From contig JABCPU010000019.1 of the NCBI GenBank assembly GCA_016800925.1, positions 186,001 to 250,000 on the forward strand: a DNA stretch of 64,000 bases, read 5' to 3'. Origin of the DNA: Suillus spraguei (Eukaryota > Basidiomycota > Agaricomycetes > Boletales > Suillaceae). The position numbers and the translations under genes are program-made. This document shows, piece by piece, positions 11,606-46,100 of this stretch (positions are counted from its first letter, which is position 1; every line of letters begins with the position of its first letter). Below the pieces are notes generated by a model. That model did not search any database and was not told where the DNA came from. It saw only the letters and a program-made list of their open reading frames with translations.

Positions 11606-14600
11606 ATGGACAACACACCGCAGCTGGGTACAGCTGCAGACCTTGAGATGCGGGCTGCTCGCATTGCAGACCCTGGCATAGGTATGTGCCCTGCAATAAA
11701 ATTTAGCTCTCTGTTGTTGAACATACACATACTGGTCATAGATCTCAAAACGAAGCACAATGTTGCATGCGAACTACGGGAAATGATAGACACTGTCCGA
11801 GATGCTGAATCTGCGCGAGTATTTCCTCAAATGATTCCAGTTCTCTTGGAAATTCTGAACACTGGGGAAGCTGCATATCATAAAGACACCATGGAGTACC
11901 AATTCAGGCGTGTTCTGCTTGAAATCATACATCGCATACCCTACGGGGAAACTATACGACCTCTGGCTCTGCCATTGCTTAGTGGCATGCTTCATGCCTT
12001 GCGCCATGATAATGAGGAAAATGGCGTCACTGCATGCAAGATTATCATCGACCTTCTACGGTCATTTCGATCGCTGACAGAAGAGCTGGTCGCCGAATAC
12101 ATGGGAATTCTTCAAGATGTATTTCGTAACATGAGGGGACTTGTCCTTGAAACACTCTGCGAGGACTCCCCTATTCTTGATCCCAATATCGTCCTTCCCA
12201 GCATTCGCAGTTTCAAAGTCCTCGCCGAGATGGGAATGGTAGTTGTCACCTTTTCTCAGAGCCATCGCCCACTTGTCCTTCACGTCATTCAAGCGACACT
12301 CTGCCTCAACTTCGAGGTTCTGGGTCTCGAATCTCCCGCACAGAAAAAAGCTAGAGAAGATTATGAAGCCATGGGATCTTACTGGTCCGGCATGGCACCC
12401 ACCATGAAGAATCCTCAAGCGTATATGGATTTCATCACTGGGCAAATCAAGGTATGTATCGCTGGAACAATTTCTATATTCGAGAGTGTTCATTGCGTAG
12501 ATGGTATCTTATGTTGCATATGTCATGCGAGGCTTTGGAGAACAGTTTGATTCCTTTGGAGAAAGGCTCATTCTGGCTGCTCTTCGACTAATGCAAGACT
12601 TGCCTTCCAACGGCATACAAGCACGAAAGGTGAGTTACCTAAATCAAAAACGTGACCAGACCTAATACATCTTCTAGGATCTAATAGTGGTGCTACGGCA
12701 TTTAATCGGAACGCAGCATCGGAAGGCTCTTTTACCACAGATTGACAAACTCTTCGATGAACGTATTCTTCTTGGAGATGGAGTGGGTAGTAAAGAGACT
12801 TTGCGGTGAGTTCAGTCGATCAGCCAATGAAGAGCTATATTGATCATCACGAATCAGTCCGTCGGTTTACGCCTCGGTTGCAGACCTTGTGCACCACGTC
12901 CGAGGTGAACTATCGGCTAATCAGCTCGCGCGCGTGGCGAAGCTGTATTCCGCGTTAATCCATAATCCGTACCTCAGTCATAACTTGCATACGCTGTTCT
13001 CCAAGATGATGTTCGGTCTGATCGAGAATATTACAACGAAGGACACTGCTCAAGGTGCTGCACGGGTACTGACTGCCATGTTCGAGACTTGTGTCGACAA
13101 GGTCGAGGCGATGACACTGGTCTTGGACAACGCACTTGAGAGGTTAGAGAAAGCCAAGAATGGTGAAGAGGAAGGCGTCGACTTTCTGTTGATAGAGAAG
13201 ACACGACCTGTTGCAGGTGCTGCATATGCAACTGAAAAGCCAGAAGAAGTTATTCATGGTAAGAAGACTTTCGACGTGCACAAATTACCCTTTGATGTCC
13301 TTGATCTTAGAATGTCGCTTTCTCTTCCGAACTCTCCTTCATGGGTTCCGTGTCTGCCTTGTGGGATTGAAAAAATGTGATGCCCCAGTTCCCGAGGGCA
13401 CACTAATCCTCCGTCTTTTCGAAAGTTGCATGAAATGTATGGGCCTGTTTGATACCGAGCCACGTGACGCTACCGAAGCCATGGACTGGTTCAGCGCAGT
13501 TCTGCTGGAGGTCAATCTGCATGTGTTCCAAGAGGTTTGGACCCACAAGATTGAGTTTTTTTTCGAAGCAGCTCGCAAAAGACCTGCACTCTTACAAATT
13601 TGTCAAATTTTATTCAGTCGTGAAAACGTCTCGCCTACTCTGGTAGCGATCGTCCTTCGTTTCCTCATTGACCGTTTGTCACTTCTTGGGGAATACGATG
13701 ATCAAACAGCGGTTATCACCATTCGGCTGTTCAAAATGGCATTTGGCGCAGTCACGTCTTTTCCTGTGCCCAATGAACCCATTTTGGCTGCACATTTAGC
13801 TAAACTCATCATGGATTGTTTCCCTCTCGCCGCCAAAGCCTCGAAGTCAACCAACTACTATCATCTTTTGAGAGGCTTGTTTCGCGCAATTGGCGGAGGA
13901 GGGGGCCGCTACGAGCTTCTTTACAAGGAGGTTCTACCACTCCTTCCCGATATGTTGGAAAGCTTAAACCGCCAGTTGCATGCCTCCGAAGGGTATGCGA
14001 GGGACATGATCGTCGAGCTTTGCCTTACGGTGCCACTGCGTCTCACCCATCTCCTACCTCATCTCACATATCTTATGCGCCCCCTCGCACTTGCGTTACG
14101 TGGGACTCCTGAACTCGTGTCTCAAGGTCTTCGTACCCTTGAGCTTTGTATCGACAACCTGACACCGGATTTCCTTGATCCGACTCTCAATACTGTCTTC
14201 GAGAACTCATGGAAGCGCTTCATAGTCACCTCAAGCCACTACCTGCCAGTCATCATCATGCCCACACGACCATACGTATTCTTGGCAAGCTCGGTGGACG
14301 CAATCGCCGTTTGTTGTATAAAGAACCTGCCCTCGAATACAACCCATTCTCAAAGGCCGCAACCGTTCCTCTTTCTTTCGGCGGTTCGATGGAAAACGTG
14401 AAACTGGCTCCGATGATCAACTTGGCAATTCGAACCTTGCGTAAGGCTGCACCGGCCTATCGTGCCCAGACATACTCGTTATTGGAGACATGCACTGTCA
14501 CTCTTCTGCATGATGTAAGTAAGCTTGGATAGCATCGTATTCGACTGATTTTCAATGATGTACCATAGAATAGCCATGGACCGGACGAATCAGCGGTGTT

Positions 14601-17600: not shown

Positions 17601-20600
17601 TGTTACCTCGTGCACTGTCGCTGTTGCAGAAGATGGTTGCGCCTTCAGGTTGGAGTGACGTGACCGTCAAGTTGAACTTTTTTTCGCGTGCTCTGGAACA
17701 GGTGCATACATTGCGCACTTCATACCCGTGTAATTCTAACGCCACTGCAGACAGAACTAGATTCAGAACCCCACGTTAACCAAGCTCTCAGTGCTTCAAA
17801 AGTGCTGCAAGTTGTTGCTGCAGATAAGGATGATGCCTGGTATCTGGCCAACGCTACAATCCTCCAATCCCTGGTTCGCAAAGGCCTGACAACAGATGAT
17901 CCCGGTTTGCATGACGCCCTTCATCCCATCTTTGAGCATCTCCTGCAACTGTTCCCTTTACCTGATCGAGACGAGAAACAGGGTGATATGTCAGACTTCC
18001 ATACCTGGGTCTACACAGCAGTCGAGGATGGTCTGACGAATACAACTGCTCTCCGTGGGGTACTCCTCATGCTCAAATCTGTTGTACAAGTCACAGCGGA
18101 GCGCGTTCAGCCGTTCAGTGCATCTCTTCTACGCCTCTTCAGCAAACTCGCCAAAGATCACGTCAGTTCAACCCCGACTACCAATGGATTTGAAAATGGT
18201 GTCCGGCTCATCATCTCTATCATTGAGATTTGCAAAGCTACCATCCTACACCTCGGCGACCATCGGAAATCATTTTTTGCTGCCTTCACTGCGCTCACAG
18301 AGAAATCCAAGAGTCCTACCCTGTGTCATTTCTCACTTGATGTCATGCGCGACTGGGCCCTTCACACGAACGAAGCATATCCAACAATGAAGGACAAAGT
18401 CAGCGTGCTGCAGAAAATGGCGGGCTTCGAGACCCGCAGCGATGCGCTCTTCCACAGCTACCTGGAACTCATCTACGACATCTACACAGAACCTTCATTG
18501 CGCAGAAGTGATTTAACATCCCGACTGGAACAATGTTTCCTCCTTGGTTGTCGTGCTCGAGATCCTGTGCTTAGAGAACGATTTATGGACCTTCTGGACA
18601 GTAGCATCCCTCGTTCCCTTCAAGGTCGTCTAGCATATATCTTAGGAGTCCAGAGTTGGGAGCCTCTCGCGGACCATAACTGGATCTATCTTGCACTCCA
18701 TCTCCTTCTTGGGGCTGTCGACGGCGAAGTGCCGTTGATTTCGGAGCGAAGAATCAGTATGGTACCCTTAAATGGCAATTTCGTCGCTCGACAGAATGCA
18801 GCGTCTGTCATTCGTGCCATGCAGAGATTAGCATTCCTTGACCCTCAAGTTGCGCACGACACTTGGGTATCAGTCTTTCCCGCGGCTTGGGCGTGTCTTT
18901 CTCGTCGAGAACAGGCGGACATGACACTTCACATGATCAACCTGCTGAGCAAGGACTTCCATGCCAAACAGCTGGAGCTGCGCCCCAATGTCATCCAGAC
19001 TCTATTGGGTGGTATTCACGCTTGCTCGCCTCCTATGACTCTGCCACCCTACTTAGTGAAATACCTCGCAAAATCATACGGTGCATGGCACGTTGGGATG
19101 GAGATTTTAGAGACGTCTCTGGACTCCGTCAAGGACGATGATCTCACTGTGAAAGAGACGGTTTACGATTCGCTTGCAGACGTTTATGCTGAATTAACGG
19201 AGGAGGACGTATTCTATGGTCTTTGGCGCCGGCGATGCCTCCACCTCGAGACGAACATGGCGCTTTCGTTTGAACAGAATGGCATGTGGGAGTTTGCCTC
19301 CAACTGTTATGAAGGGGCAATGACAAAGGCGAAGAATAGCCAAATCGCGTTCTCAGAAGTGGAGTATTGCCTTTGGGAAGACCATTGGATGCTTGCAGCA
19401 GAAAAACTCCAGCAGTGGGACACATTGCATGATTTGGCGAAGAGCGAAGGAAATCAGGAACTCCTACTTGAAAGTGCATGGCGCACGAAAGATTGGGCCG
19501 ATCAGAAAGAATCCCTGGAGGAGCAGATTAATCAACTACCCGACGTTGCGACTCCGCGAAAGCGAGTTTTCGAGGCATTCATTGCTCTTCTGAAAGTACC
19601 TGGTGCGCTGGAAAAGAACACCGAATTTACGAAGATCCTTGAAGATGCAATGCAGCTGTCGCTGCGTAAATGGGTTGCTCTTCCGTTCCACATGTCGGCT
19701 GCTCACGTTCCGTTGTTACAACACTTCCAGCAGTTTGTTGAGCTTCAAGAAGCCGTCCAGATCTTCGGTTCTCTCTCTACAACCACCGCTCAGAATCTGG
19801 AGAAGAAGTCCTCGGATCTCAAGATGGTTCTACAAGCTTGGCGAGAGCGCCTTCCCAACCTGCAAGACGACATCAGCACATGGAGTGACTTGGTTGCTTG
19901 GAGACAGAATGTTTTCAACGCAATTAACAAGGCGTACATCCCCCTTATTTCCAATACCAACCAAAGCAATAATTCCGCGACAAGCAACTTCAATACCTCG
20001 GGCTATCGCGGGTATCATGAAACGGCTTGGATCATCAATCGCTTTGCCCATGTTGCGAGGAAGCACGATCTTCTCGATGTCTGCTTCAGTTCTTTAAACA
20101 AAATTTACACGCTGCCGAATATCGAGATATCGGAAGCTTTTCTCAAACTACGGGAACAAGCGCGCTGCCACTACCAGAAACCAAATGATCTCCAAGCAGG
20201 ACTGGAAGTCATCAATAATACAAACTTGATGTACTTCTCTAACCCCCAGAAGGCCGAGTTTTTCACTCTGAAGGGCATGTTTCACGCGAGAAGTGGGAGG
20301 AACGACGACGCCAATCACTCCTTCGGCCAAGCAGTCCAGATGGACATGTCGCAAGCCAAGGCATGGGCGGAATGGGGACGGTACAGCGATCGCATGTTCA
20401 AGGAATTCCCCGGCGAAATGTCGCACGCTGCCAATGCTGTCAGTTGCTACCTCCAGGCAGCTGGACAGTATAAGAATGGAAAGAGTCGGCCCCTACTGAC
20501 TCGGGTGCTCTGGTTGTTGAGTGTAGATGACGCACAACTTACGATCTCCCGAGCGTTCGATACTTACAAGGGCGAGGCAGCGTTTTGGTACTGGATATCC

Positions 20601-23195
20601 CTCATCCCACAACTTTGTCTTTCTATCAGTCAACGCGAAGTCAAGCAAGCACGATACATCCTGCTGAACCTTACCAAGTTATTCCCCCAGGTATCCAGTC
20701 ACTTGAATCTAACTTCTTGTCATGAGCTCATCCTGGTTACAGGCATTGTTTTTCCCATTGCGGACAACGAAGGAGGACATGCAATTCATCAAGAAGCAAG
20801 CTTTGGTTACAGCAGCAGCTCGTGCTCAAAGTGCAATGACTGCCAACGCAAACAGACGTTCTGACAGCGACCAAGTGATGCAAGACGCTACGGTCGAAGT
20901 CCAAGCAGATATCATCAAGAAGGAGAATTCGTCAGGTGACACTATTGAATCTCAGCTTTCCCAGACCCAGACCCAAACCCAGTCCAACGCAGAGATAACT
21001 CCTGCTACTGCACAGAACGCGGGCGTCACTGCTTCTGCTCAAAATGCTCCGGGTGCGTCTGACACTCAGCCAACTTATGTCGTCCGTCAATCTTGGGAAC
21101 ATGTGGATGAGGTCGTTCAGATCCTTAAAACGGCGTTCCCGCTGCTTATTCTGAGCATGGAGACTATGGTGGATCAGATACTGCAGAGGTTCAAGGCTAC
21201 CCCTGAAGAAGAGATTTATCGGTTGATCTGCATGCTCTTGCTGGACGCTGTGCAGGTAAGTAATTCATGTGCTACCTGCAAACAGACGTAAAATATACAC
21301 TTCCAGAACTACGTGATGCGGACGAATACGACGGAGGATGACGGGCAGCTTCAGCAACATACTGTACAAAACATTTCGAAGATGGCTGCGAACTTGACTG
21401 GATCGGCTAGGGTATGCACTTACTACTTGAACAGGAATACGACTGACCTTATTGTAGCGAGAATATGAAGAAGACTTTGTCAAGAGTAAACTCACGCATT
21501 ATGAGTACATCCGAAAGCTTCAGCAATGGAGGGACCGGCAAGAGAAGTATCTCGACTCTCGACCACGCATCCAGTCTCTCGACCTCCTTAGCCACTATCT
21601 CACTGAGTTCCAATATGGCAAATTCGATGACATTGAGGTTCCGGGTCAGTACACTGAGGTGAGTTGCATACTTGATATTGTCGACTTGACCTTAGACTTT
21701 ACTATAGGATAAGGACAGCAATCAGAACTTCATTCGGATCCAGCAATTCGGATCCAAGTTCGAGAACTGTCGGTCATATGGTTATTGCTGGCGTAGATTC
21801 ACGGTGCATGGCAACGACAACTCGCGAACATCATTCTCCGTTCAGCTTCCTTCTGGCCGACACTGGCGTAGGGAGGAGCGGCTGACGCAAGTGTTTCGGA
21901 CTTTCAATTGGTGAGATCCTTTCTAGTTCACATGCTCTACTCACTGACCTTGCCTACTATAGTGCCCTGGTCCGCAGAAAGGAATCTCGCAAGCGAAATT
22001 TGCTGTTCCATATTCCAGCTGCTATCTCCTGTAGCCCTAGTCTCCGCCTCCTGCAGACAGATTCGTCGTACATCACACTCGGGGACATATACGACCACCA
22101 CTGCGAGGAAGCTGGTCTATCTCGTGAAGACCCCATACTCGTCTCTGGTGAGAAAGTCAAGAGCGTGCTGCTAGAATTCAAGCAAAAAAGTGGCAGGGCA
22201 GTAAGTACATTCACAACACATCTTGGATTCATTCTTATAACGTTCGGGACAGCCGAGCAAAGCAGAATATTTCACCCTGCGAAAAGACATTATGGATGAA
22301 ATCGGCACCAAACTTGTTCCGGATGATGTTCTGTCCAAAGTATGTCATTCTGTCTCTTTATGTAGTCAGTACCTCATGCACATGTTCTCGCGCCCAGTAT
22401 ATGATAAGTGCAATGGCCACGCCTGCAGACCTTTGGCGCATGCGCAAGCAGTTTGCGCTCCAAGTTGCCGCAACGAGTTTCATGACCTTCGTCTTCTGCC
22501 TCACTAGCCGTGCGCCCTCGCGTTTCCATCTTTCTCGGTCGACAGGGCTCATGACGATGAGTGAAATGTTGCCTGGTATGCCTATTTACCCCCAGTTATT
22601 AAATCAGTTATTGAATCAGTTATTGATTGGGAATACAGGTCTGGCAGGTCAGGCTCCTGTATTCGCGTCTAATGATGCAGTACCCTTCCGCTTCACCCCG
22701 AATATGCAGAGGTTTTTGGGCCCTGTATTCACCGAGGGGTTATTGACGACAGGCATCATGGTTATTGGGAGGTGTCTTACCGAGCCCGATGTGCGTTCCC
22801 TACCCGCTTTCGTCTTCATCCACTGACATGGACAACAGTTTGGTCTTGAACAACAGCTTTGCCTCTTCGCTCGGGACGAGGTAATGACATGGATGCACGG
22901 AAAAGGACATCCTTGGACGTTCGATTTGTCGTTCAGAACAAGCTGTGCGGCGAACATTGAGGGCGTGGTGAAGCGTGCTGAGATAATGGCATGTAAAATC
23001 GAGCGAGAGACGGTGAGTATACGTTATGAATCACGTGCGAGTTCCTGTTCTGATTGGTTTGTCGGTGTACAGGCCCAATCGACCACAAATATGGGCGGCA
23101 TACCAGTCATACAGACTGTTACCAATTTGATCTCGACGGCTACGAATCCTGTGCAATTGATGAGGATGAGCGAAGTATATCACCCGTGGTTTTAG
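11606..23195 (+). CDS. TRA1: TRA1/TRRAP, PIKK-family pseudokinase of SAGA and NuA4
   Basis: A giant gene of roughly 3,400 codons with about two dozen short introns, ATG at 11606 ([20 protein letters not shown]) and TAG-free run to the stop at 23193-23195. Conserved blocks in order: the N-terminal HEAT region ([20 protein letters not shown]), mid HEAT ([15 protein letters not shown] type), the FAT domain ([20 protein letters not shown]), a PI3K-like fold ([15 protein letters not shown]) and the FATC tail ([20 protein letters not shown]). The kinase-like domain lacks the DFG and catalytic loop residues of active PIKKs ([15 protein letters not shown] instead), as in all TRA1/TRRAP. It is the activator-binding scaffold of the SAGA and NuA4 acetyltransferases in the nucleus. 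Oddity: near 14196-14205 the frame shifts by one base inside a conserved stretch (TLNTV | [12 protein letters not shown]), with no room for an intron. An intron near 22580-22640 carries an imperfect CAGTTATTGAAT triplicate. Confidence 0.95.
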
Positions 23196-23396: not shown

Positions 23397-25386
23397 TCAC
23401 GCACGGGCGTTGCGCAAGTAACCTTCTGTTTGCCGGAAGGAATTGATATGACCCTCGCTCTCGAGCATCATCTACCAATACCAGTTTCAGGTCCAAAAAG
23501 AAATGGTTTGTCGAAGAAAAATACCCACCTCTTCTGCCATCAACGCGATATCACTCCCTGGCCTATTATACATCATTGCATTGGCAAACATTAGATACAC
23601 ATCCCTCTGAAAATCTCTCGAGGTCCTGATAACTCCATCTTTGATCCTTGCTTTGATGGTCTTCAAGTCCATGGGACGCTTGATGATATCGTGGTAATCG
23701 GGCGCTTCCGTCGGTTTTATAGGATTGTGGAAGATGTTACCGTTGCGGTGTTGTGAGATTTGAGAGTGTAGGAGGTTGATGACAGCCTGGAAACGCTTGT
23801 TAGTAATGGGTTGAGCTTGGGTCGTAGATTGGGCGGTAGAGCCAGATGGACTAGATTGGAGGGGTGTGGAGGGGCGTTGCTCGCTGCTTGTCGTGTCGCG
23901 TCGGGGACGTGTGGTTACTGTGTAGTCTTTGGTTAGCGGATGCTCGGTCCTTTTGAGGGCACAAACTTTGTTCCTCCTCCCCTGGTGTAGGAGGTGAGCT
24001 CTCCTCACGTAAACGTTTCTTGTTGGGCTCCTCAGCGCCTTCGTTGCCGTCAGCTTCCACTTCGTCCACCTTGCGTTTGGCTACGCAACATGGATTACTA
24101 ATTTGATTTTGCTAAGCCTAATGTAGACGCACCCTGCGAACTTGTCTCAGTATCAACAGATAAATTCTGCTCCGTGTCGACTTCCATGGATGTCTCTTGC
24201 TCTGATTCAGTTTGGGAGTGTTTGATATCTTGTGTGGGGGATACCTCCTCTTCTTTACGTTCGAATGTCTCTTCCTCGTGAATAGGCGACTCCTCATGTT
24301 CGGGAGACTGTCGACCAGCTTCTTCCTCAACGGATCCTTCTGGGGCACCAGGTGTCAATATCGCCTCTATCTCACTTGCCTCATCGTCTGGGGACGTGGG
24401 CTGCTGCTCCCATTCAGACTGTTCTGTTTCCTCCTCATGGGTTGAGGCTACGGGTTCGTCGAGTTCGATTGGCTGTTCATAATTTTCATTCTCAGGTTCG
24501 TGTTGCTCGAATTGTGGTGGGCAGGGGGGTTCTTTTTCGAAAATTTCTACAGGCACTGATTCAGGGGCTTGATCATGTTCAATGTTCTCGAGTTCTTGGA
24601 CAAGGACTGATGCTTCTTCCTCTTCTTCTGGCTGGGGGGTAGATTCACGTTCTTGCTCTTGGATGTCGTGTGAGACCTCCGGTTCCTGCGCAATCGAGTT
24701 AGACCGAAGATGAAGCAGCCAGAAATACGCACGACGGCTGTTTCGTTCTGTGTGGGTGCAGTATCGTGTTCTGCCTCGTGCTCGAAATCTGTTCCAGAGA
24801 GTTTGGCACGAATCTTATCGTCCCATTTGCCAGCCCGAATGTCCTGAATTTCTGCAACGATGGTTCTGGGTAGGGTTAGTATGTCAGAAACTGTATGTTT
24901 AAGGTACTCACTTGAACTTGACTTCCTCTGCTGCAATCAAGTCACGCAACTCCAGGAGACGTGCATTATAGAACTTCTGGGCAAGCTTGAGATTCACAAG
25001 AGCTATATGTACTTTAACCAATATGTTAAAGTGGCATTCGATTGGGGCTTACCATGTGGAGCATTCGCGTCAGACTCGGTGCTATATGAATATTCATGAG
25101 GACATACACAACTTGGGTTGGTGCGAGCATCTCACCACTCAACTGAGCATCACTCATTAAGCGAGAGTATATATCGCGACAAGACTACATCAATAGAACT
25201 TGATCTGAGTGCGCCATACATAGTAAAAAGTTGAAACGGGCTGACGTTAGCGGAAAAGAATGTCTTTGGGCGAGAGATGATGGGATGCTTTGAGAGCAGC
25301 TTTGAGACTTGCTGCCAAGCATTTGCGCCGTACTCGTACACTGCTTGTGAGAGTAAAAGACGTTCTACGCTGGTTAATGAGCTCAT
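23397..25386 (-). CDS. BRD8-like bromodomain protein, probable NuA4 subunit
   Basis: Start ATG at 25384-25386 (MSSLTSVERLLLSQAVYEYG, then ANAWQQVSKLL), a SANT-like N-terminus as in BRD8 and fission-yeast Bdc1. A coiled-coil exon follows (about 24900-25080), then a very acidic Glu/Ser/Thr-rich linker (24098-24556) and a C-terminal bromodomain: HNPIKPTEAPDYHDIIKRPM, DLKTIKARIKDG, FANAMMYNRPGSDI. The last exon is taken after an intron beginning GTGGGTATTTTTC, giving AEEMMLESEGHINSFRQTEG and a stop at 23397-23399; reading straight through instead ends at 23487. The bromodomain would bind acetyl-lysine, with the conserved Asn in MYNRPGSD. It is tail-to-tail with TRA1, 201 bp apart; both belong to NuA4. 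Confidence 0.82.
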
Positions 25387-30630: not shown

Positions 30631-33600
30631 ATGCACGCTTCTCACACCAGATCGAGGCGCAAGCGTGGCAAAATCGACAACGTCGAGGACGACGGACTGT
30701 CTCTGCATGTCTCACGGGTTGAAGACACCCAGTCTGAAGCTTATTCTCGCTCTCGTCCGCATTCTCATCAACAAACAGATTCCTACGTTCCTTTCGCATC
30801 CCGAAATTCCCTTGCCATGAGTTGGGAACCTCCTTCGTTCACTGACTCATTGGCAGCACCTGACCGTTTCCACTCCCGTCCGTCCGATATTCATCATCGT
30901 GGTGGCAGAGATAGTTACGACATCCACGATGATGATCCACCGTGGTCCGTGCGTCCTAAACATGACTGGAACCACCAGACTAGTAGGGAATGGGCAACGA
31001 ACCAAGGTTCTTCAGAGCAACAAAATTGGGGAGCGTCTACTTCGTATACGGATAGAGGTCGTGGCCACGGCTGGCAACCAGATGACAGACGGGGGAAGGA
31101 TGATCGGGGGGATAATCATCATCATCCTAATAATGACAATCACCACCACAACCGCCGTCGTAATAATCGAAAGTTTCAACAACGAGACAACGGTTGGGAC
31201 ACTCGGAGAGACAGGCAACCTCGGACGCAGGATATGCAGGAGGAGCCACTCAAGGATGAGCGGTCTTGGGAGCCTGGTCCCGGATGGCAAGCACGTGGCG
31301 CCGACCAAGGGGGTAAGCATAATCGCAATCGCAATAACGGAAACAAGAACAAAAGCAAGAAAAATCAGAATAAAAATCGTATGCGGATAGAGAAGGAGAA
31401 AGAAAAGGCGCGGGAGAGAGTGCAGCACCGAAATGACGATGACGATGACCTGAACAAGTGCTTTGTGTTTTATATTGTGCTATCTTCCACATTCTCATGT
31501 CGTTTTGTTTACAGCTGGCAGAGACGGGAGTTCCATCCTTTACCTGCCAAACCTGTTCGCACCTCCCCTGTTAAACCCAAAATGGCACCCTCCAGATCAC
31601 CATCACCTGCGGGGACGCGATCGCGATCGCGCTCTCCTGATTCTTACTACTCTCATATGTCTTCGCGAGGTCGTTCGCACTCAAGGTCGTTGTCTCCAAG
31701 ATCGCAGCAACATAGCTACAGTCCAGTTCGGCGGCGTAGTCGGACGCCCACTGACAGGGGACGAACTGGCAGGGAAGCTCAAAGCTGGAAGTCATATTCC
31801 CCTGGATCATCCGATCGTAGTTGGACCATGCGTAGAGGGCGTCGACACAGCTTTTCGTCAGCCTCGTCTGTAAGCCGGAGTAGGAGCAGAAGTTCAAGCC
31901 GGAGTATGGATGACCGGCCCAAACCTAAGCACCGTTTACCAACTGCAACTTCTATCAACGATATATCACTGTCTATATCACAAACCACCATCCAGCAACC
32001 ACATGGTGGTCCTCTTCCCACCCAAAGGGACTCTGAATCGCGACTCAATGGAAAGGCGAGGACAAACGGAAAGCAGGGCAATGTAAGCATACTCAATGAT
32101 ACTCAATGCGACCCCAGATAGGCGCTGACTAATTTGCAGCGCCGTCGACATTTCTCACCAGCTGCTGAGCAAATGCCTCCTCCAGCTAAGGTTCCACGAA
32201 CATCTACGAAACATCATTCAGGCGATTCTCTCATCAGCTACCATCCATCATCTGCATCCGCATCCGGCTTAGCCGATCATGGCTCTCCTAGAATCCGCAA
32301 GGTCTCAAAGGCAGGATTTAGGCCCATTGGGGAGCCTAGTTCAACGGTCAAATTGTTTTTCCCACGCGACGAAGACGACGACGAAGCTGGTCCCGCCCCT
32401 CAACATAAATCCCCCACCTCCCCCAAGATTCATTCAGAAGTCCCTGCAAAGCGAACTCGCGATGAAGGTGTGACCAATAGAGACGAAGATATGCGTGGAA
32501 GCATCCTCCCACGGCCTTTGCCGTTCCAACAAGTTCCTGGTCCACGCGAGCCTGTCACAAAGACAGCTCTGGCTCACCAGCCTATGCAGGTCCCGCCTTT
32601 AGCTGTCCACGACTCGTTGAAGGCTTCTATTGTACCGAAACCAGCAGGTAGTGGTGATGTTTCTATCAGTCCTACTCAGCAGTCACATACAGTCACGGTG
32701 GAGCCAGACACGGAAGGCACGCCACGACCGTCCTCTCCATCGGGAACGACCTGCAAGGACCTGTATGCCATTGTCTCCCAGGTTGGCGAAGGCACATTCG
32801 GCAAGGTTTATAAAGCTCGCAATGTCATCACCAATGTCCACGTGGCGCTCAAGCGAATCCGCATGGAAGCAGAAAAGGATGGCTTTCCAGTCACTGCCAT
32901 GCGGGAAATCAAGCTACTGCAGTCCCTACGACATCAGAACGTCGTCCGCCTTTACGAGATGATGGTATCAAACGGTAATTCTTTGGGGATCTATTGCCCC
33001 CTCAGCATACTGATTCCTTTTTCAAGGATCTGTGTACATGGTGTTTGAGTACATGGACCATGACCTTACAGGGGTTTTGTCTCAAACACAGTTCTCATTT
33101 TCGGAGGCCAATTTGAAGTCATTGTGCAGCCAAATGCTTGCTGGGCTGGCATATCTGCATCGCAAAGGCGTCATCCACCGTGATATCAAGGGTTCCAACA
33201 TTCTTATCAATAACCGAGGGGAGTTGAAACTCGCCGACTTTGGTCTGGCGCGCTTTTACCAGAAACGCCGACGAAGTGATTATACCAATCGTGTCATCAC
33301 TCTATGGTATCGACCGCCAGAATTGCTCTTCGGTGCTACGGTATATGGGCCGGAAGTTGATATGTGGAGTGCAGGGTATATTTCGTTCGTGCCTTCTCGC
33401 ACCGCCTTTTACTGATGGTATTGTTCAGCTGCATCATGCTGGAGCTTTTCACCAAGAAACCAGTATTCCAGGGCAATGACGAAATTCATCAGCTGGACGT
33501 GATCTACCGTATTCTTGGAACTCCGTCTACTGAGCGATGGCAAGGGCTCACCGCATTGCCATGGTATGAGCTGGTGAAGCCGAAAGATGTAATTCATGGT

Positions 33601-34055: not shown

Positions 34056-35599
34056 TCATGCTGTAACCGCTGGCTGTTGGACAAGACCCTTCTCAGCCAG
34101 GTGTTGCACAATAGTCTCTACCTGCCAATCAAATCAGCTCGATGATTGTCTGAGGGGAGTCCCGGAACGTACATTTGCCGCTGTCATGCGAATTTGTAAG
34201 TCCCACCGCTTGGTAAACGGAGCACCAGTATCCTCGTTTGTCTGCTCCACGTCACCAAGACCACCTGCTTTACCTTGAGCGTCATCTTCCTCTCTTGCTG
34301 CATCGAACCAGATGAGCTTATCGACTTGATCAATTGACCCTTTCAAACGCCCTTGCTCTATCATTTTCCGTGCCATTGTCTCCGCGGCTCCAGGTGCTAG
34401 GTCTAGGAGAGCACCAAGACCTCTAAAAGTGATGTTGTTATAGATTTTTGAGCTCGCCAATAGGTTATGCTCCATGACCGCTCGATCAAGTACGGTTGAC
34501 GGTCCCCTGCGAGTACTTGTCGATGGTTCAGCAAAATCATCATCGTCAATAGTCGAGGCAAGCTGATCATTGGAAGAAATAGCAATCCTTGCTAATTGAT
34601 GAGGCCGAAGGCGCTCCTCGAAGGTTCTGATTTCAGCTGGGCGGAGGATGTGGTCGAGGAACATTTTAGACAGGATGTTGTATGAGGGTAGGTCAGCCGA
34701 ACGTTCGTCTCTATACAGTGAAGCAAGTACGCGCGACCTGTTTGGACCAGCTGGGGCCAAGACTGCGCAAGTCACTGCAGCCGACCTAGTGTTGTCAGTG
34801 GGATGCAAATATCGCTAGATGCGACCTACAACATCTCCTTTCTTTCTTCTTCGTCGATTTCGGCAAGCCAGCTCAGCTCGTGATAGCGCATTGCAGCCTC
34901 GAGGAACTTGCGTGCATAGTCACTGATTCTGGCTTGGCAGAGCTTGAACTGGAGTTGTGTCACTCGGTCTGATGTCGAATTCGAAAGGGAAGCAGCGCGA
35001 TTGTAGTAGGTCTCTGCCTGAACAGAATCTTCGTCCTCTAGGAGCAGCCTGACTATCCTAATGTTCACACGAAATTTTTCTTCGTCTGGGAGTGACCTGA
35101 CACAGGCTCATAGATGAGGGGGGCACATAGGGACTATACTTAAATGAGCGAGGCTCACCGAGAAGAGATTCCCATAAGGACACGAGCGGCTTCGCTCCAT
35201 TCCTCTTCCGTTTCTAGCAAATCTGCAAGTTGAAAGCGTAAAGAATTGACCTGCAGAACATGTTATCGGACTGTATCTTCAGGGGCAATCTTGCAGACGC
35301 ACTTGCTCTTCATAGCTTACGATTCGTGGCTGAAGTGTGCTGAGAGTTTCCTCTACGACACGTTTCCGCAGGTTGTGGTCTGATATGCTTCTGGTACCGA
35401 GATTTCTGACCAGTTCAGAGAGGACTTGTCTTCCGACGACAATGCCTGCATCCTGGACTACTGTTTCCACTAACGTATGAAGATCAGGTGCTATGAGGGA
35501 CTGGTTTTGACGAGCGAGGATCTCTGATACCAGAGATAGATAGGCTGGAGCTTTGTCCTTCTGGTTGAGAGCTGCGAATTGTGTTAGTCTAGAGTCCAT
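34056..35599 (-). CDS. CSN4: COP9 signalosome subunit 4
   Basis: ATG at 35597-35599 (MDSRLTQFAALNQKDKAPAY). The helical N-terminal region carries VVGRQVLSELVRNLG and NIRIVRLLLEDEDSVQAETY with YYNRAASLSN, the CSN4 signature. Next come CQARISDYARKFLEAAMRYH, LAPAGPNRSRVLASLYRDER, and the PCI/winged-helix part MEHNLLASSKIYNNITFRGL, with GRLKGSIDQVDKLIWFD. A last small exon gives ETIVQHLAEKGLVQQPAVTA and stop 34056-34058. Length about 420 residues, normal. CSN4 is a PCI subunit of the COP9 signalosome, which removes NEDD8 from cullins in nucleus and cytosol. It is a functional companion of cullin-RING adaptors such as the DCAF-like gene 4 kb away, though this proximity may be chance. Confidence 0.92.
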
Positions 35600-36231: not shown

Positions 36232-39200
36232 ATGTCCCACTTTTCCAGCCACCCTTACTACCACACCATACCAACTATTCATTCCTCCCGGAATAATCAT
36301 CCACTTCCTCTCAGTCCACCGGAGACCGATCAAGAATCCTTACCAGTTCAACTACCACCGGCCTCTCTTCTCACTGGCGCAGAGCTGGAACAGCCTGCGC
36401 ATCATGCTCTGAATTTTCCTGAGCGTTCTAGATTCCAATCTCGCAGGACGTCCACTCTGTCGTACCAGCACTCGGGAGTGCGAGATAACCGCGACCGAAC
36501 TCCTGTACGGGCCTCAAAGTCTTTAATCGTCGTTCTTCCTCCACCAGACTTTCCCGTAGATCATGGTCAACTAGGTAACGTGTTGTCCGTGGGACCTTGC
36601 CACCGCGTATCTCAGGGGATCCTCATGCCCCTATTCCCTACGGTTGGTAGTCCTAACTACCGAGAAATGAGTGTTCTAACTTTTAGATCAGATATACGGG
36701 CAACTCACTGCAATCGCACGGGAGTTCAATTTCCCGAGCACCGTGGGCTTGTGTCTCTACCACCATATCACTGAAAATGGCATCACTATGACGCCACGCA
36801 TATCTGACGATGCTTGGCAGTACCTATTGGTACATCTCATCGAGTCACGCAATGGCTCCCAACAATTACCCATCGGTGGTCGCATAGAATTCGACATTGA
36901 TCTCAACAAAGCTCGCTGGTTCGATGCCTGGCTTGCTGGTACACTGCGTGATGACACCATTGTTCCTGCTCCGCAGTCCCATGCATCTGTATTGCACTTG
37001 CATGGGGATAGTAAGACTATGTTTGCAGAGGAGCACATTGTGAACGAAGATCGTTGGGATAATCAGACCATTCAGTCGAACTCAAGGCCTACAGCTATCC
37101 GTCACGTACCCAAAAAACTCTCCCTCCTCGATCGGCTAGATTCCACTGCGCTCCAGGATTCGTACAAAGCATCGCAAGCAACTTCTCCACCTCTAAACCA
37201 TGCTGCGGATCAATTGTCTCCCATCCCACAATCTGCAGCTCCGCAGACGTCGAAAACCGAGCTCCGTCGACGCGTCAATTCATGGAGAGCAAGCGCACTC
37301 TTGGACCCTGCGTCAATGACAGAGTCATACCAGCCTGTCCCTGATGCTACGTTGGGTGCTGCGGCGACTGAGGCTATGGATGAGTACCCCTTAGAGGAGG
37401 CGGGAGTCCAAGAGCCGCTGAATTTGTCCGACTTTGCCTGGTCCGTCACATCCGCTGGGCCACTTAGTCCGCCTTTGTATTCTCCATTGTCTTCCTACCG
37501 TCTTCCCTCTGTTCATCTTGATCGTCGCATGCAGGAATCTGTGCTGCTGACGCCGATTACAGCAACTAGCTGGGGACCTCCGGATGATGATTGGCTTTCG
37601 GATGTGACAAGCATCGATCGTTTACCTTCGCCTGACATTGGTAGACGTATACTTGATAGTGCACCCCTGACCCCCGCTACGGCCACTAGCTGGGGGCCTG
37701 CTGACGATGGGCAGTCAGATGTGTCCAATATTGATCACTTGCCATCTCCAGACATTGCTCACCGAATGCTGGAAGACGCTTTAGCGAGTCCAGCCTCTGG
37801 AGCGTCCTGGCATAAGGAATCATACAGCGCATGGGCGGGCATGTCTGCCTCATCTTCTTCATGGTTCGATGTTACAGAAGTAGTGACACTTCCGTCAACT
37901 ACTTCTTATAATCCTTGGGCTGGAATGCCATGGGTTCAAGTTTGGCCTTGGTCCAAACTTGACAATGATGCAGAGCCTGGGGTTTCCTATAGTCCCTGGG
38001 CCATCGTGCCTACCATCCGGACATGGCCTTGGTTCGATATTCATGCTTCCCAGGACATGGGCGACCTGGAGTTACAGCATAGCACCTCTCGGAACCCCTG
38101 GGTTGGCATGCCCTGGTTTAACATTGGACCATGGCATGAAGTCAACAGTGCACAGCCTAGAAATTCTATGCTCATTTCGCTCAGTCAACAAGGAGGGTTG
38201 AGATCCGAATATCCCAGTCTAGACATCTGTGTGTGGTCATTGCTCGCGATTAATGGGTGGCTGCTAACTGTACAATAGATCCAGCTTCCTATCCTTATTT
38301 CAATATTTATCCCGCATGCGCAGAGGTGAACAGTTGTGGCCTCAGCAACGCTAGAGATTATCATTATCCTGTACTTGATATTTGTGAGTCGTCGTATTGA
38401 TTGGATTTTAGGATGATGCTCAGCTCGAACATTAGATCCTGCAGTTTACCCTCATTTTAATTTATATCCTTCGATTGCATGCTCAGCTATTTCATCTCCT
38501 GAAAAGACGGCCGCCTTTCAGCCACAAAAATCTGTCGTTGTGGAACTTGCTCCAGTTTACCCCCTGTTTAATCTTTGTGAGTAGTCGTTGGCGTTGCGCT
38601 TTTTTCTGAACTGATTGTTTTCAGACCCGCCTCTTTACCCGCATAATCTCAATTCAATTTATCCGGCACCGGCTGCCGAATTATTTTCATCTGTGGTACT
38701 CCCGAGTAGCTATCCGTGGCTGATTATTTGTGAGTTATCTTGTGTCCTTGCTTGAACGGAGTCTGACGTGCGCTAGATCCTTCTGTTTACCCTCATGTAA
38801 ACCCATATCCACAAGCCAGTGCTGTGGTGACCGGACCCCGCAAAGCAAAAGACGATATTATGCTGCCTGTTCAAGTGAAACTTCAGCCACAATATCCTGT
38901 TCTTGATATTTGTATGTGGAATAAGTGTGTTAATTACTGGCTTGGAGCTTATTTCCACTCAGATCCTGCAGGCTATCCATGGAGCCTGAAAACAGTATAT
39001 CCCCCAGCTGAAGTCGAAGATACTTCTGAGATCACTGTCCGCTTGTCATCGTGCTATCCATGGCTAGACATATGTGGGTCACCCAGTATTGTATTTTTCA
39101 CTACGAGTCACACTAACTGGCGCGTTAGATCCCTCAGTTTACCCCTTTATCGAGCCATACCCGACACTGAATAAGACATGCGAAAGTCCTATGAGCAGAT

Positions 39201-41601
39201 CTCAGACTCGCTGCAAGTTAGAATGGGTGAAAGTTACCTTAGCTAGGCATTACCCGTCATTTGATTTGTGTAAGACTTCACATTCACCCTTGAGTCTGGT
39301 GTACTGACCTTTTATCCTAGATCCTGCTGCATATCCACACTTTGACTTGTATCCTGCCTTGCCAAGCATCAGGCTCAGAGGTTCGCAAAAAGAGGAGTCT
39401 GCCAAGGTAAAGCAGGAGACTCAATTCGGTGAATAGTAATTCAGAAAATTTTCTCTTTCCAGGACACGGTCAATAGCGTGTCAGTCAACCTTGCAGGCAC
39501 TTACCCATACATTTGTCCTTGTGAGTTGGCTCAAGTGGAAAGTGAGCAGTTGCCCGATACCTAATTTGCTTCATGTAGATCCTCCCGCTTATCCTCACTT
39601 CGACTTGTATCCACGTGTTCAGATACATGCGTCCCGTGATGGTAAGGATCTGACGACTAACAAGTTCTTCGCTTCGAGTAGCACATACCCCTTCTTGGTG
39701 ATTTGTGGGTCCTGAAGTATATTTATCTCACTTGCTTCCTCACGAAGTACGTAGATCCTCCTGTGTATCCGCACTTCGATCTGTATCCCGCCCGCGCCGC
39801 AAAACTAGCGAGTCGGAGGGAGGACACGGCTAATTTCAAGTTCTCCATTTCAGCATACCCCTTCTTTGTCGTTTGTGAGTCCTACATTCCGCTTTTCCAA
39901 TCGTCTTCTCACAAAGTACGTAGATCCTTATGTGTACCCTCACTTCAATCTATATCCCACCCGTGCAGGAGCATCGCCGAGTTGGGAGGAGGATATGACC
40001 ACTTACAAGTTCTCCCTTCCATCGTACCCCTTCCTTGTTGTTTGTGAGTACTACATTCCGTTTTTCTTATCTATCATCTCACAGCGCATGTAGATCCTCA
40101 TGTGTACCCTCACTTCAATCTGTATCCCGCCCGCGCGGCAGAACCAATGAGTGGGGAGAAGGACATAACCAACAACAAGCTTTCTATTTCGAGTAGCACG
40201 TACCCCTTCCTGGTCATCTGTGAGTCTACATTATGTTTTCTTAGTGCTCTTCTCACGGTGCCCGTAGATCCTCATGTGTATCCTCACTTCAATCTGTATC
40301 CCACCCGCGCAGCAGAGCTAGTGATCCGAGAAGAATCGAATAATAATATTCTTAATGTGACTGCTGGTTCATATCCATATCTCGTAATCTGTACGCCTCT
40401 CAAGTATACTGCAAATGTTACCCATACTAAATCAGCTACAGATCCATCTGCGTATCCCAACTTCGATCTATATCCTAGTATCCCCCCGATAGTTGATTCT
40501 CCTGCTGCAAGCAGAAAATCAACTGTTAGAATGAACCATGAATACCCAGTGTTGAACATTTGTGAGTACGCGTGCTCATTCTCTTTCTAGCTTACCTCAA
40601 TTATGATTTTAGATCCTGCCGTCTACCCGCACTTGGATATTTACCCTGCCCTCGGAAGCGTGGCACAGTCATCCCAGAATGCTACAAACATACCAGAGCA
40701 CCTATTATCTGCGAAAAGGCGCAGGAAGACACACGCCGAACTACACACTGAGGTGGCTCGGCCACCTAGGCTTCTTGTAACTGGGAGAAAGTTTGCGAAA
40801 ACACACCGTCAGCTACACGCTGAGGTTTTTGTCAATGGTGTCACTTGGACACCTAGCGGATATGTGCAAGAACTAGCATTTCCTGATAAATTCCACGAAG
40901 GGGCCCATCGTGGCCCGCGGCGTCGAATGCCCTCTGTACATGAGATAATACCTCGACTCCCTCATTCCGGCTCGGTAAGCTCTAACAGGCAATCGCCGAC
41001 TAGTCCATTGCTGCGAGAGAGACAACAACATGTGTTGCATAACGCTCTCATCCCCCCTCTCCGCATCAGCAGTCCAGGGGTGCCAGTTGTCTCGGAGTTC
41101 CCAATTCCTATACCATCACCTGCGTCACCTACATCGCGGTTGTCGCAAGCCGTGAGATCCTTTGGATCGTCGATAATGCAGGGGCGCAGTTTGACATCGA
41201 CCTCAGATGATCACAACGAGAGGGCAAAATCTCCTACAAGGTCTATGTTTCCTTCCTTTGATCGACGCAGCTCTATGATTCCATCACTACCTCCTCCCCA
41301 TGATCCGTCAGACCTCTTGGGACGCAGTCGGTCACCTGTCCAACAGGGCGCTCAGAGCCTTGTTTTGCAGAGGGCTAAGGCATATGAACAATCGACTTGT
41401 ATGTCATTTTCTTTCTACGTTTACTTGGAACCAAATCTGACTTTTGGATCCAAAGCTTCATCCGGACATCATTCTCTCAGCGTGAAAGGAACACAATTAT
41501 CATCTCATCGCCTGCTTCCCATTCCTGATTTCCCCCCTGCAATAGATCTGGGGTTGAACACTGATAAGTCAAGCCTGAACAACACTCAGACCTCGTCTTG
41601 A
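36232..41601 (+). CDS. Large uncharacterised protein with tandem YP-repeat exons (about 1,500 aa)
   Basis: I do not recognise a named family. Exons inferred: 36232-36646; 36687-38228; then 38279-38383, 38436-38576, 38625-38729, 38777-38911, 38963-39073, 39129-39269, 39321-39406 plus 39463-39520, 39579-39704, 39755-39874, 39924-40043, 40094-40219, 40268-40390, 40442-40561; 40613-41398; 41456-41601. These give 4,506 coding nt, 1,501 residues. The N-terminus is Pro/His-rich. A conserved-looking domain follows the first intron: QLTAIAREFNFPSTVGLCLY, HHITENGITMTPRISDDAWQ, GGRIEFDIDLNKARWFDAWL. Exon 2 also holds three copies of a roughly 43-residue unit (RRMQESVLLTPITATSWGP type) and three Trp-rich copies (NPWAGMPWVQVWPW type). 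The repeat exons encode YPxxYPHFDLYP blocks ending YPxLxI. The C-terminal exon repeats RKTHAELHTEV / AKTHRQLHAEV and is Ser/Pro-rich. There are no membrane spans or signal peptide. Function unknown. Confidence 0.8.
38229..40648 (+). repeat. Tandem array of 14 phase-1 exon units encoding YP motifs
   Basis: Units start at 38279, 38436, 38625, 38777, 38963, 39129, 39321, 39579, 39755, 39924, 40094, 40268, 40442 and 40613. Every unit starts with AT-CC after an AG acceptor, and nearly every internal one ends with a lone T before GT, so each junction rebuilds a Tyr codon (T|AT). Internal exon lengths (105, 141, 105, 135, 111, 141, 144 in two parts, 126, 120, 120, 126, 123, 120) are all multiples of three. 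Introns are 47-58 nt. Units starting at 39755, 39924, 40094, 40268 and 40442 recur every 169-174 bp, and their introns are alike too (GTGAGTCCTACATTCCG at the 5' end, CTCAC...GTAG at the 3' end), so exon and intron were copied together. The unit at 39321 has an extra phase-0 intron (39407-39462). Confidence 0.85.
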
Positions 41602-43137: not shown

Positions 43138-46100
43138 TCAATTCGAATCTACTCCTTCTCCATCCGAAACTGCATCTTCATCGAATTCAGTATTGAAGTG
43201 AAGAGCAGACTGTGGTTGGAGGTGATCCAATTCATCCTCCGATGAGCTTTCACTACTCCATACAAGTTCTGATGCATTTACACTCAAACCCCTCCCGTTG
43301 GATCTGGTAAGTCTATGAGACCCCGAGAATGGTATCGACAACGATCCTGGCCTAATATTTTTAAAGAATGTGGACGAGTTAGAAGCGTTTCGTGTTGGAT
43401 CATCAGCACACGGCTCTGGTGTGGCTGTACGTGGGCTTGCAGATGAATTTCCTGCTCCACTATCGCCGTTGCGATCGAGCAGATCAGATGCCCATTTGCG
43501 ACGCAGAACAGGAGAACGCAGAGGGTCAGTAGTATTGTTATAGTTGTTCTCATGCGTTGTACTCGTCTCCGACTCATGTGGAGCGCCACTCGTACGCCGA
43601 CCGCGGCGGAAGTACCAAGCCGTGCCATTATCTTCAAATGCACGTTCGGTGTCCGAGTCCAATGGTATCGGCGACTCGGACCTTGGTCGAAGTCGAGACC
43701 CAGTAATGGGCTCAGGAACGGCTTGACCGTTAACAATAACATTCTGGGTGTCACCGGGGTTTGAGCGAGACCGAGCCCGACCAATTGCCATGCGGACTGC
43801 CCGTCGACCCATGAGAATCTCATTTTCTATGCGAAACCGATTTTCGATCATATGTAACTGAAGTTAATAATAAGCAGATGAACAAAGACGGGGAATGTCA
43901 GTAGCTCCGACCTTAGGCCACGTTGCAATTTGCCCGACTTTCATCATTCGTTCGAGCTCGGCTGAATCTGGGTCGCTCAAGATATGCAGCCAATCCTATC
44001 AATCAACCAGCCATGGGCATCGTATTTGAAAAAAGTGCTATGCGGACTACCCACCAAAATTCGCGTTCTCGGCCAGATTCTGAAGCCGAGTGTGAGCGTC
44101 GTCAGATGGTCAGATGATTGGTACATACGTGACAGTCCCATCAAAACGTTGCAGAAAGACGCTAGACCAATCCTGTCCGAGCAACTGCGGAAGAAGCTCG
44201 AGATCACGAATCACCTGGCCGGGAATGGTTTACTTAGAATCTATCAGCACAATTAAATAAACATTACCTTGAAATTCTTAGTGAGCTCTAGTTTGAGCCA
44301 CTGTTCCGCCGCAGACAGAAGAAAATTGCCTCGCCACCCTGTAAACGCATGGAGCACTGACTAGAAAAAAAATAAGAGGTTCATCCCATACCCTTTCCTT
44401 TCCTGTGAGCGACTGGTTTTCCTGCCGACCCACGAGGCGCAAAGAAGAACAAATGGACGTGAGGGTTCACTTGTGACACGACCGGATGGGTAACTCGAAT
44501 CACAGTCAGCCGGTAATGAGCATCCAACAACAACAATCTTACCATTGAAATACATTTTGAGAGCTTGAAGAGGAATATCAACCCTAGTTGATGTCAGAAA
44601 CGCATAAAAATATCTCGGCAGATCTGCCTGCTTACCTTAAAGACCCATCCTTAAACTTACTACCCCAATTCCATGGCACGACACGGCCATCGTGGAGCTT
44701 TTGCATGAGTACAACCGGGTTGAGAATTCCGGGTACAGCTGCTGAAGCGAGTAGGGCCGTCCAGATTATCGTATCCGGTGCAGTCATGTAATTCAGGAGC
44801 TTCGTGGGACTGAGATGAATGTCAGCTGTTTTAGACTCAAGGCTCAGATGACGAGCTTACGCGTGGCGATCAGCAGGGACAACAGAAATGTTGAGAATTC
44901 GCCCGGTTCGTAGATAGGCTTCTCGAAAGGTCATGGAACCTCTTGTGAAGAATGTGCACTGTAAAAGCAAGTCAAAAAATAAACGTCGGTTGAGCGTGCC
45001 TGCTAACTTTACGAGCCCACGCAACACTGTCAAATCTTGCGCCAGTGGTCCAAAAACGTTTTACCCATATCGTGAGGGTGTCTTCACATGCCGTCAGTTT
45101 TTGGGCTAGTTCAGGAACAAGAAGAGCCTTTAGTTCCGCATCTGTACGTGTGCATACCAGAGCGGCAACGAGACCACCAGCGGACGTTCCGGCAATGACC
45201 CGGGGAAGCAGCCCTGCATCTAGGAAAGCTTTCACTATACCAAAATGATCTAGAGCAGGGAGTCGGATATCAATGCCGTAGAGTAGTTTCTGACTTACAA
45301 TATCCAAAAGATGCGCCGCCTGAGAGACACAATGCAGATGTTCCCAAATTAGTGCTAGCATTTTTGAAGAATTTCCTCTTCTCTTCAATAGAAAGTTCCG
45401 AAGACTCTCGAACGAATTGTAACGAGCTCTGCAACTCAGCATGATATGCTATTAAAAGATAATTAGACCGAATAATATTTATCTTAGTAGAAACTAACAT
45501 TCGATTAAGTCTTTGGTGCCCAGGAAAGTCTGGTACCTCAAAGGTATGGATTAGGATCCTATTCGAGGGATAACATGCTTACTTCACTATAAAGCCTAAG
45601 AGAAACATAAATGGGAGTGGGATTGAGTAATATAAAAAAACATACCTGGAAGACTCGACTCCTACAAAATTGGTGCGAATACATGTTTCTAATACACCGA
45701 GAACCCCCCGAACATCCTCCTTCTCTCTCAAAATCCTCAATGACCGATTCACCTGACAAGTGTTGCTTGAGCTGCTGTGTTTTGTATACGTGACTTTCTT
45801 CACCTTGCGCAGAAGTTTCCAATCATAAAATGGATCCTCGTCAACCTTCTTCCATTCATTGAACAGAAGGTATTTGTCGAGCAACATTGCCGTTTCCTTC
45901 CATTCCTAGAGCCAAAAATGAGACACCAATGCGTATATCAAGATTCAAGACATGCGACACACCTGATATGTACGTGCCCCACGAAGACGTTTGCGTAGAA
46001 GGCCCTTCTGTCCTCGCCCTGGGATTTTGGATGAGCCAAAGTATCGGTACGGTGAAGATCAAACTTGCATGCTAGCAGCCATTCTTTGGTATTTACGAGT

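Follow-up and report, generated by a model that had tools for sequence, protein, structure and literature searches.

Between positions 36232 and 41601 on the forward strand, the 64,000-nucleotide (nt) stretch of Suillus spraguei DNA analyzed here (the window) probably carries a real protein-coding fungal gene whose middle part has grown by repeated in-frame tandem duplication of a module consisting of one exon and one intron. This degree of confidence applies to the architecture and origin of the gene, not to its function. The window lies on contig C358 of the assembly that was searched, which comprises 86.2 megabases (Mb) in 1256 contigs.

Splicing was inferred from splice sites, branch-point-like words, and codon-level selection. 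Joining the segments 36232-36642, 36692-38228, the 13 units within 38279-40561, and 40613-41601 produces a model of 1517 codons (1517 amino acids [aa]) without an internal stop. All 16 introns of the model are bounded by GT..AG and measure 47 to 58 nt; 14 of them lie at the seams of the array, one more is found inside unit 7, and the remaining one separates exons 1 and 2. The additional intron in unit 7 is needed because a straight reading of this unit meets two stops. The seam donors match GTRNGT in 12 of 14 cases, and a branch-point-like word, CTNAY, is present in 13 of the 16 introns, a raw count not set against a chance expectation. The parts of the gene are as follows (carets in sequence motifs here and below mark splice junctions).

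36232-36642 (+): exon 1, 137 codons; 3' boundary less certain than the others
36643-36691 (+): intron between exons 1 and 2, 49 nt, GTTGGT..CAG
36692-38228 (+): exon 2, uninterrupted, 1537 nt; contains the N-terminal domain, further repeats discerned by eye, and the final half-block EYPSLDI-Y^
38229-38278 (+): first seam intron, 50 nt, GTGTGT..TAG, phase 1
38279-38383 (+): unit 1, 105 nt
38436-38576 (+): unit 2, 141 nt
38625-38729 (+): unit 3, 105 nt; first bases AC-CC instead of AT-CC
38777-38911 (+): unit 4, 135 nt
38963-39073 (+): unit 5, 111 nt
39129-39269 (+): unit 6, 141 nt
39321-39520 (+): unit 7, split; 144 nt of coding sequence, from 39321-39406 plus 39463-39520
39407-39462 (+): putative extra intron in unit 7, 56 nt, phase 0, deduced from the two stops and the splice sites; no CTNAY match
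39579-39704 (+): unit 8, 126 nt
39755-39874 (+): unit 9, 120 nt
39924-40043 (+): unit 10, 120 nt
40094-40219 (+): unit 11, 126 nt
40268-40390 (+): unit 12, 123 nt
40442-40561 (+): unit 13, 120 nt
40613-41601 (+): last exon, 989 nt; opens with the closing half-block ^PAVYPHLDIYP, continues with the C-terminal region, and ends at the stop codon

The 14 seams of the array, with acceptors at 38279, 38436, 38625, 38777, 38963, 39129, 39321, 39579, 39755, 39924, 40094, 40268, 40442, and 40613, share one geometry. Every seam is in phase 1, the intron separating the first base of a Tyr codon from the other two, and splicing would rebuild Tyr followed by Pro at all 14. Much of this had been recognized in a preliminary description of the same DNA, and its account largely stands: a T precedes each of the 14 seam donors and the codon is restored as T^AT or T^AC throughout, all 13 internal units are multiples of three with lengths of 105-144 nt (unit 7 only after subtraction of its extra 56-nt intron), and the 14 seam introns span exactly 47-58 nt. 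Small details needed correction. The AT-CC start attributed to 14 exons applies to 13, the exception being the AC-CC at 38625, which still encodes Tyr, and the recurrence of 169-174 base pairs (bp) noted for the later units is right except for the first interval, the starts from unit 8 on being spaced by 176, 169, 170, 174, 174, and 171 bp.

In the protein, every seam sits centrally within an 18-residue block, YPx(L/F)x(I/L)-Y^P-xx-YPHFNL-YP. The first block takes its left half from exon 2 and the last block its right half from the last exon, giving 14 blocks in total; because the outer exons contribute these half-blocks, exon 2 joined directly to the last exon would still give a complete block. 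All 105 of the 105 possible forward donor-acceptor joinings yield Tyr-Pro, and the earlier statement that any exon can be gained or skipped without loss of frame holds as a property of the sequence. Tyr-Pro occupies all four block positions in 14 of 14 blocks, which amounts to 56 pairs in the 559-residue array versus 8.8 expected from composition and to one pair in the 959 other residues counted; Tyr and Pro account for 10.9% and 13.9% of the array, respectively (preliminary model). A pattern for the donor side of the seams, derived from the array itself, had five exact matches in the window, all of them at array seams, and none in each of 100 shuffles. Retention of intron 38912-38962, 40220-40267, or 40391-40441 would be in frame and would turn the seam Tyr into Cys.

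Of the evidence gathered here, codon-level selection is the strongest indication that the spliced frame is likely to be used, and likewise that the motif, rather than the linker, would be what matters to selection. The proportions of nonsynonymous and synonymous differences (pN and pS) were taken, uncorrected, from an alignment of the 13 units. The Tyr-Pro pairs, four per unit, are identical at 52 of 52 places in this alignment, with a pS of 0.77 and a pN of 0.00. Over the 13 units, pN/pS is 0.27 in the left part of the block, 0.36 in the right part, and 0.88 in the linker, the latter a portion with many gaps. Among units 8-12 the corresponding values are 0.16, 0.14, and 0.71, block and linker standing in the same order as in the full set. 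Overall, the array looks like a real, selected protein repeat.

The 13 units are homologous, as they align to each other with invariant Tyr-Pro columns, and they also form repeat families at the DNA level. All 91 seam-intron pairs were compared with the splice motifs trimmed, likeness being expressed as a z score against 300 base shuffles. Four consecutive introns, 8 to 11, which lie between units 8 and 12, resemble one another.

39705-40267 (+): region of introns 8-11, all four similar to one another and carrying CTCAC at -15; apparently recently duplicated exon-plus-intron modules
39705-39754, 39875-39923, 40044-40093, and 40220-40267 (+): introns 8-11

Five of the six pairs formed by these introns exceed a z of 3, with a maximum of 7.0, and the pair of introns 8 and 10 reaches 2.1. 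Compared pairwise, units 9, 10, and 11 show an intron identity of 71-80%, a synonymous divergence (dS) of 0.51-0.67, and a nonsynonymous divergence (dN) of 0.24-0.28. In the complete set, z exceeds 3 in 7 of the 91 pairs, including two scattered ones, the first and second seam introns (3.9) and introns 7 and 12 (3.5). The preliminary description had proposed that the introns are alike and that exon and intron were duplicated together. The former is clear for introns 8-11 only. As for the latter, these comparisons show what appears to be joint duplication for the recent modules, i.e., those carrying introns 8-11 (units 8-12), while we infer it for the other modules, where the exons can be aligned and the majority of introns are as dissimilar as shuffled sequences. 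Since the older neighboring units are at or near synonymous saturation, the unlikeness of their introns speaks neither for nor against a common origin.

A search of the 86-Mb assembly with the array returned at least 10 matches, and every match listed fell inside the gene at 36232-41601. A DNA pattern for YPHF[ND-type]xYP had seven matches genome-wide, all seven in this gene, and none in the reversed control; the C-terminal exon found no match besides itself in the genome search. A looser hexad pattern was set aside as too loose (36 matches genome-wide, 4 of them in this gene, with 8 in the reversed control). Matches to a YPHFNLYP-type DNA pattern in prokaryote contigs (14 stretches) and viral contigs (1) were single in each case, came from scattered organisms, and were taken as chance.

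The N-terminal domain, by comparison, has one further match in the genome, on contig C325, with a genome-wide expectation value (E) of 0.032. The match is stronger when the two sequences are compared alone: BLASTP gives an E of 8e-07, and their local alignment score is 81 against 27 +/- 4.5 in 1000 shuffles, the largest of which scored 48. The motifs PRIS...W and EFDID...A.W...WL.G are common to both.

C325:116372-118684 (L025 3773-6085; L020 277-2589) (-): paralogue of the N-terminal domain, 770-codon open frame

This paralogue has no Pfam match and possesses a coding repeat of its own, made of 72-bp units in 4.6 copies (L025 4514-4845) within an open frame devoid of introns. The N-terminal domain thus goes with repeat tails of two kinds. 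The boundary between exons 1 and 2, the least certain of the model, was picked by eye from the alignment with the paralogue, in which the junction ...LFPT^IYGQLTAIAREF pairs with ...LQPS^LNAQLNAIAKEY; earlier candidates for this boundary were discarded, as the junction of 36642 with 36692 is the one that aligns by eye with the paralogue. Exon 2 (36692-38228) also seems, by eye, to contain two intron-free repeats, one TATSWGP...LPSPDI..R-like in about three copies and one NPWAGMPWxxxWPW-like in about four. No Pfam-A family matched at an E of up to 1 when a preliminary 1520-aa version of the model was searched, the C-terminal region being likewise unmatched, and the exon-2 piece 36689-38227 had no match among PDB sequences at an E of up to 1.

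We propose that the ancestral gene would have contained a single phase-1 intron within a single 18-residue block. Each new module would then have added the closing part of a block, an unconstrained linker, and the opening part of the following block, with every seam re-forming the block regardless of the number of modules. Growth would have proceeded through unequal crossing-over, all modules would have arisen by duplication, and all would be included constitutively in the transcript by intron definition. Because introns 8-11 are alike and the outer long exons (1537 and 989 nt) are free of introns, duplication of one module would be a much simpler explanation than 14 insertions at one codon position, for the older modules presumably as well. 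A number of observations nevertheless weigh against this scenario. No likeness above a z of 3 is seen in 84 of the 91 intron pairs. The intron at 40391, which follows unit 12, does not resemble introns 8-11, its identity being 36-42% to those after units 9-11 and 38% to that after unit 8, and dS is already 1.66 between units 11 and 12. The three retainable introns mentioned above are multiples of three and stop-free, which leaves read-through open. The gene model, moreover, was derived from the DNA sequence.

This last point is what could favor an artefact, i.e., splice-like signals embedded in an unspliced or noncoding repeat. Such an explanation is hardly credible given that the Tyr-Pro columns are invariant despite widely differing synonymous sites and that the 1517-codon model is open. 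The dissimilarity of the 84 intron pairs would also fit a later gain of the introns, whether by duplication of an intron-free repeat followed by entry of introns at the same site of each copy or by repeated introner-like insertion. The intron-free 72-bp repeat of the C325 paralogue agrees with this, as does the occurrence outside the gene of the seam pattern with an intron-sized gap (28 matches genome-wide, 6 in this gene, 3 in the reversed control), several of the other matches looking like copies of one sequence. However, later gain would call for 14 insertions, each hitting one and the same base of the Tyr codon, and the resemblance among introns 8-11 parallels that among their exons, all of which makes later gain very improbable.

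A different proposal concerns what the array does at the RNA level. Exon skipping or intron retention could produce proteins with differing numbers of blocks, as in the spring region of titin, whose tandem immunoglobulin (Ig) and PEVK regions are variably spliced (PMC7274174). Every forward module joining is in frame with Tyr-Pro (105/105), and 3 of the 14 seam introns can be retained without a stop or shift. Against this, frame neutrality is an automatic result of duplication, and the GTRNGT donors at 12 of 14 seams together with introns all of 47-58 nt are as expected for constitutive splicing by intron definition. In one studied basidiomycete, Ustilago maydis, exon skips are a minority class, with 12 among 193 tabulated events versus 114 intron retentions, and intron definition is the presumed mode of splicing in fungi (PMC2219887). 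For these reasons, neither alternative splicing nor variation between strains, both raised in the preliminary description, is favored by default, and we regard a splicing switch of this type as distinctly unlikely compared with duplication followed by constitutive inclusion. The paper on U. maydis also mentions numerous exon skips in Cryptococcus neoformans.

The kind of architecture is already known, and the Suillus gene is a striking fungal case of modest novelty. The suggestion in the preliminary description that no such system had been described does not survive as to kind, since tandem arrays of exons in a single phase, with a codon split at each junction, are reported in Tetrahymena. According to PMC6564038, 90-bp exons stand in tandem in the Tetrahymena leucine-rich repeat (LRR) genes; phase-2 introns separate more than 96% of these exons, a junction amino acid is encoded across each seam, and the origin of the arrays is ascribed to successive duplication and unequal crossing-over. 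Frame-neutral tandem exons, a single intron phase, and a split junction codon are thus common to both systems. They differ in that the ciliate exons are exactly 90 bp, in phase 2, LRR encoding, and number in the tens of thousands, whereas the Suillus gene, the only one found in one genome, has units of 105-144 nt in phase 1 that encode a Tyr-Pro block, with no Pfam match. The PEVK and tandem-Ig regions of titin resemble the Suillus array in having many tandem exons and a repetitive, proline-containing product, and titin joins a variable number of its tandem exons (PMC7274174); this comparison was made without exon phases and claims no sequence kinship, titin being an animal muscle protein with documented variable splicing and the Suillus gene being known from its DNA only.

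No report of a same-phase tandem exon array in a fungus was found among the open-access papers listed, as judged by title and start of abstract, the Tetrahymena paper being the only relevant one; this is weak evidence of absence, and five motif strings of the array had no match in the open-access literature. The interest of the gene lies in the apparently clean duplication of exon plus intron with the seam inside a conserved motif rather than between motifs, an arrangement that would leave both motif and frame intact when a module is gained or lost. In addition, the 13 copies within this single gene seem graded in age, a natural series in which to follow how duplicated introns decay, and the array makes it possible to test concretely the idea that Tyr-Pro repeats form a multivalent ligand in pH signaling or for the endosomal sorting complex required for transport (ESCRT).

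With regard to function, the protein may tentatively be viewed as a largely unfolded intracellular scaffold that would present its 14 Tyr-Pro docking blocks, most plausibly to a PalA/Bro1-type protein reading YPXL/I. Docking of this type between PalA and PacC was reportedly described by Vincent et al. in 2003. The right-hand hexads conform to YPx[LIF] in 14 of 14 blocks and to YPx[LI] in 11, the other 3 having F; YPX[L/I] is thus present in 11 of 14 right-hand hexads, a motif that is short, common, and weak when taken alone. The left-hand hexads conform to YPx3[LI] in 10 of 14 and to YPx[LIFV] in 12 of 14. The V-domain family ALIX_LYPXL_bnd (PF13949) has matches on two contigs of the genome, four of the five above the cut-off. 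PalA binds PacC via two YPxL(I) motifs, which flank a protease site, so that this fungal intracellular protein shares the Tyr-Pro-x-Leu/Ile motif with the Suillus array (PMC4832277, PalA/Rim20-PacC); the latter differs in its 14 blocks of four Tyr-Pro pairs each and is a putative ligand. The YPx[LI] hexads, the PalA-PacC precedent, and a V-domain family encoded by the same genome together make a multivalent PalA/Bro1 ligand a concrete hypothesis. Speaking against docking, the hydrophobic places after YP are easily filled, 9 of 14 left hexads have F, not L, at +3, and a YxxPhi signal would fit equally well.

A different role for the YP blocks, as adaptor-type YxxPhi sorting signals, as aromatic-proline stickers of a condensate, or as a structural coil, has a chance not far short of even. 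The hexad counts just given for YPx[LIF] on the right and YPx[LIFV] on the left suit YxxPhi, the high Tyr and Pro content of the array also points this way, and so does a structure model of unit 11, built from 12 of the 13 units (the split unit 7 being left out), which shows no secondary structure at a low-confidence mean predicted local distance difference test (pLDDT) score of 65.4. YxxPhi sorting signals are not known to require Pro after Tyr, whereas in the array Pro follows Tyr at all four positions of the 14 blocks. For the N-terminal domain, a structure model built from two sequences is also of low confidence (mean pLDDT, 50.5). A further elaboration of the docking hypothesis, in which exon number would set valency, appears unlikely: splices would assemble composite PalA/Bro1-type sites, and whole blocks would be exchanged by unequal crossing-over between strains or by exon choice within a strain.

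Around the array-bearing gene, the window contains several other frames with recognizable products, identified through Pfam where so indicated.

23487-24008 (-): bromodomain protein (Pfam)
32134-33048 (+): protein kinase (Pfam)
34134-34808 (-): PCI-domain protein (Pfam)
44972-45442 (-): patatin-like phospholipase (Pfam)
17688-20864: open frame for a Tra1-type protein (Tra1_ring and FAT domains)

Together with the short introns, the Tra1-type gene shows the DNA to be eukaryotic and fits a fungal source. Judged by eye, neighboring frames starting at 11606 resemble additional parts of that gene.

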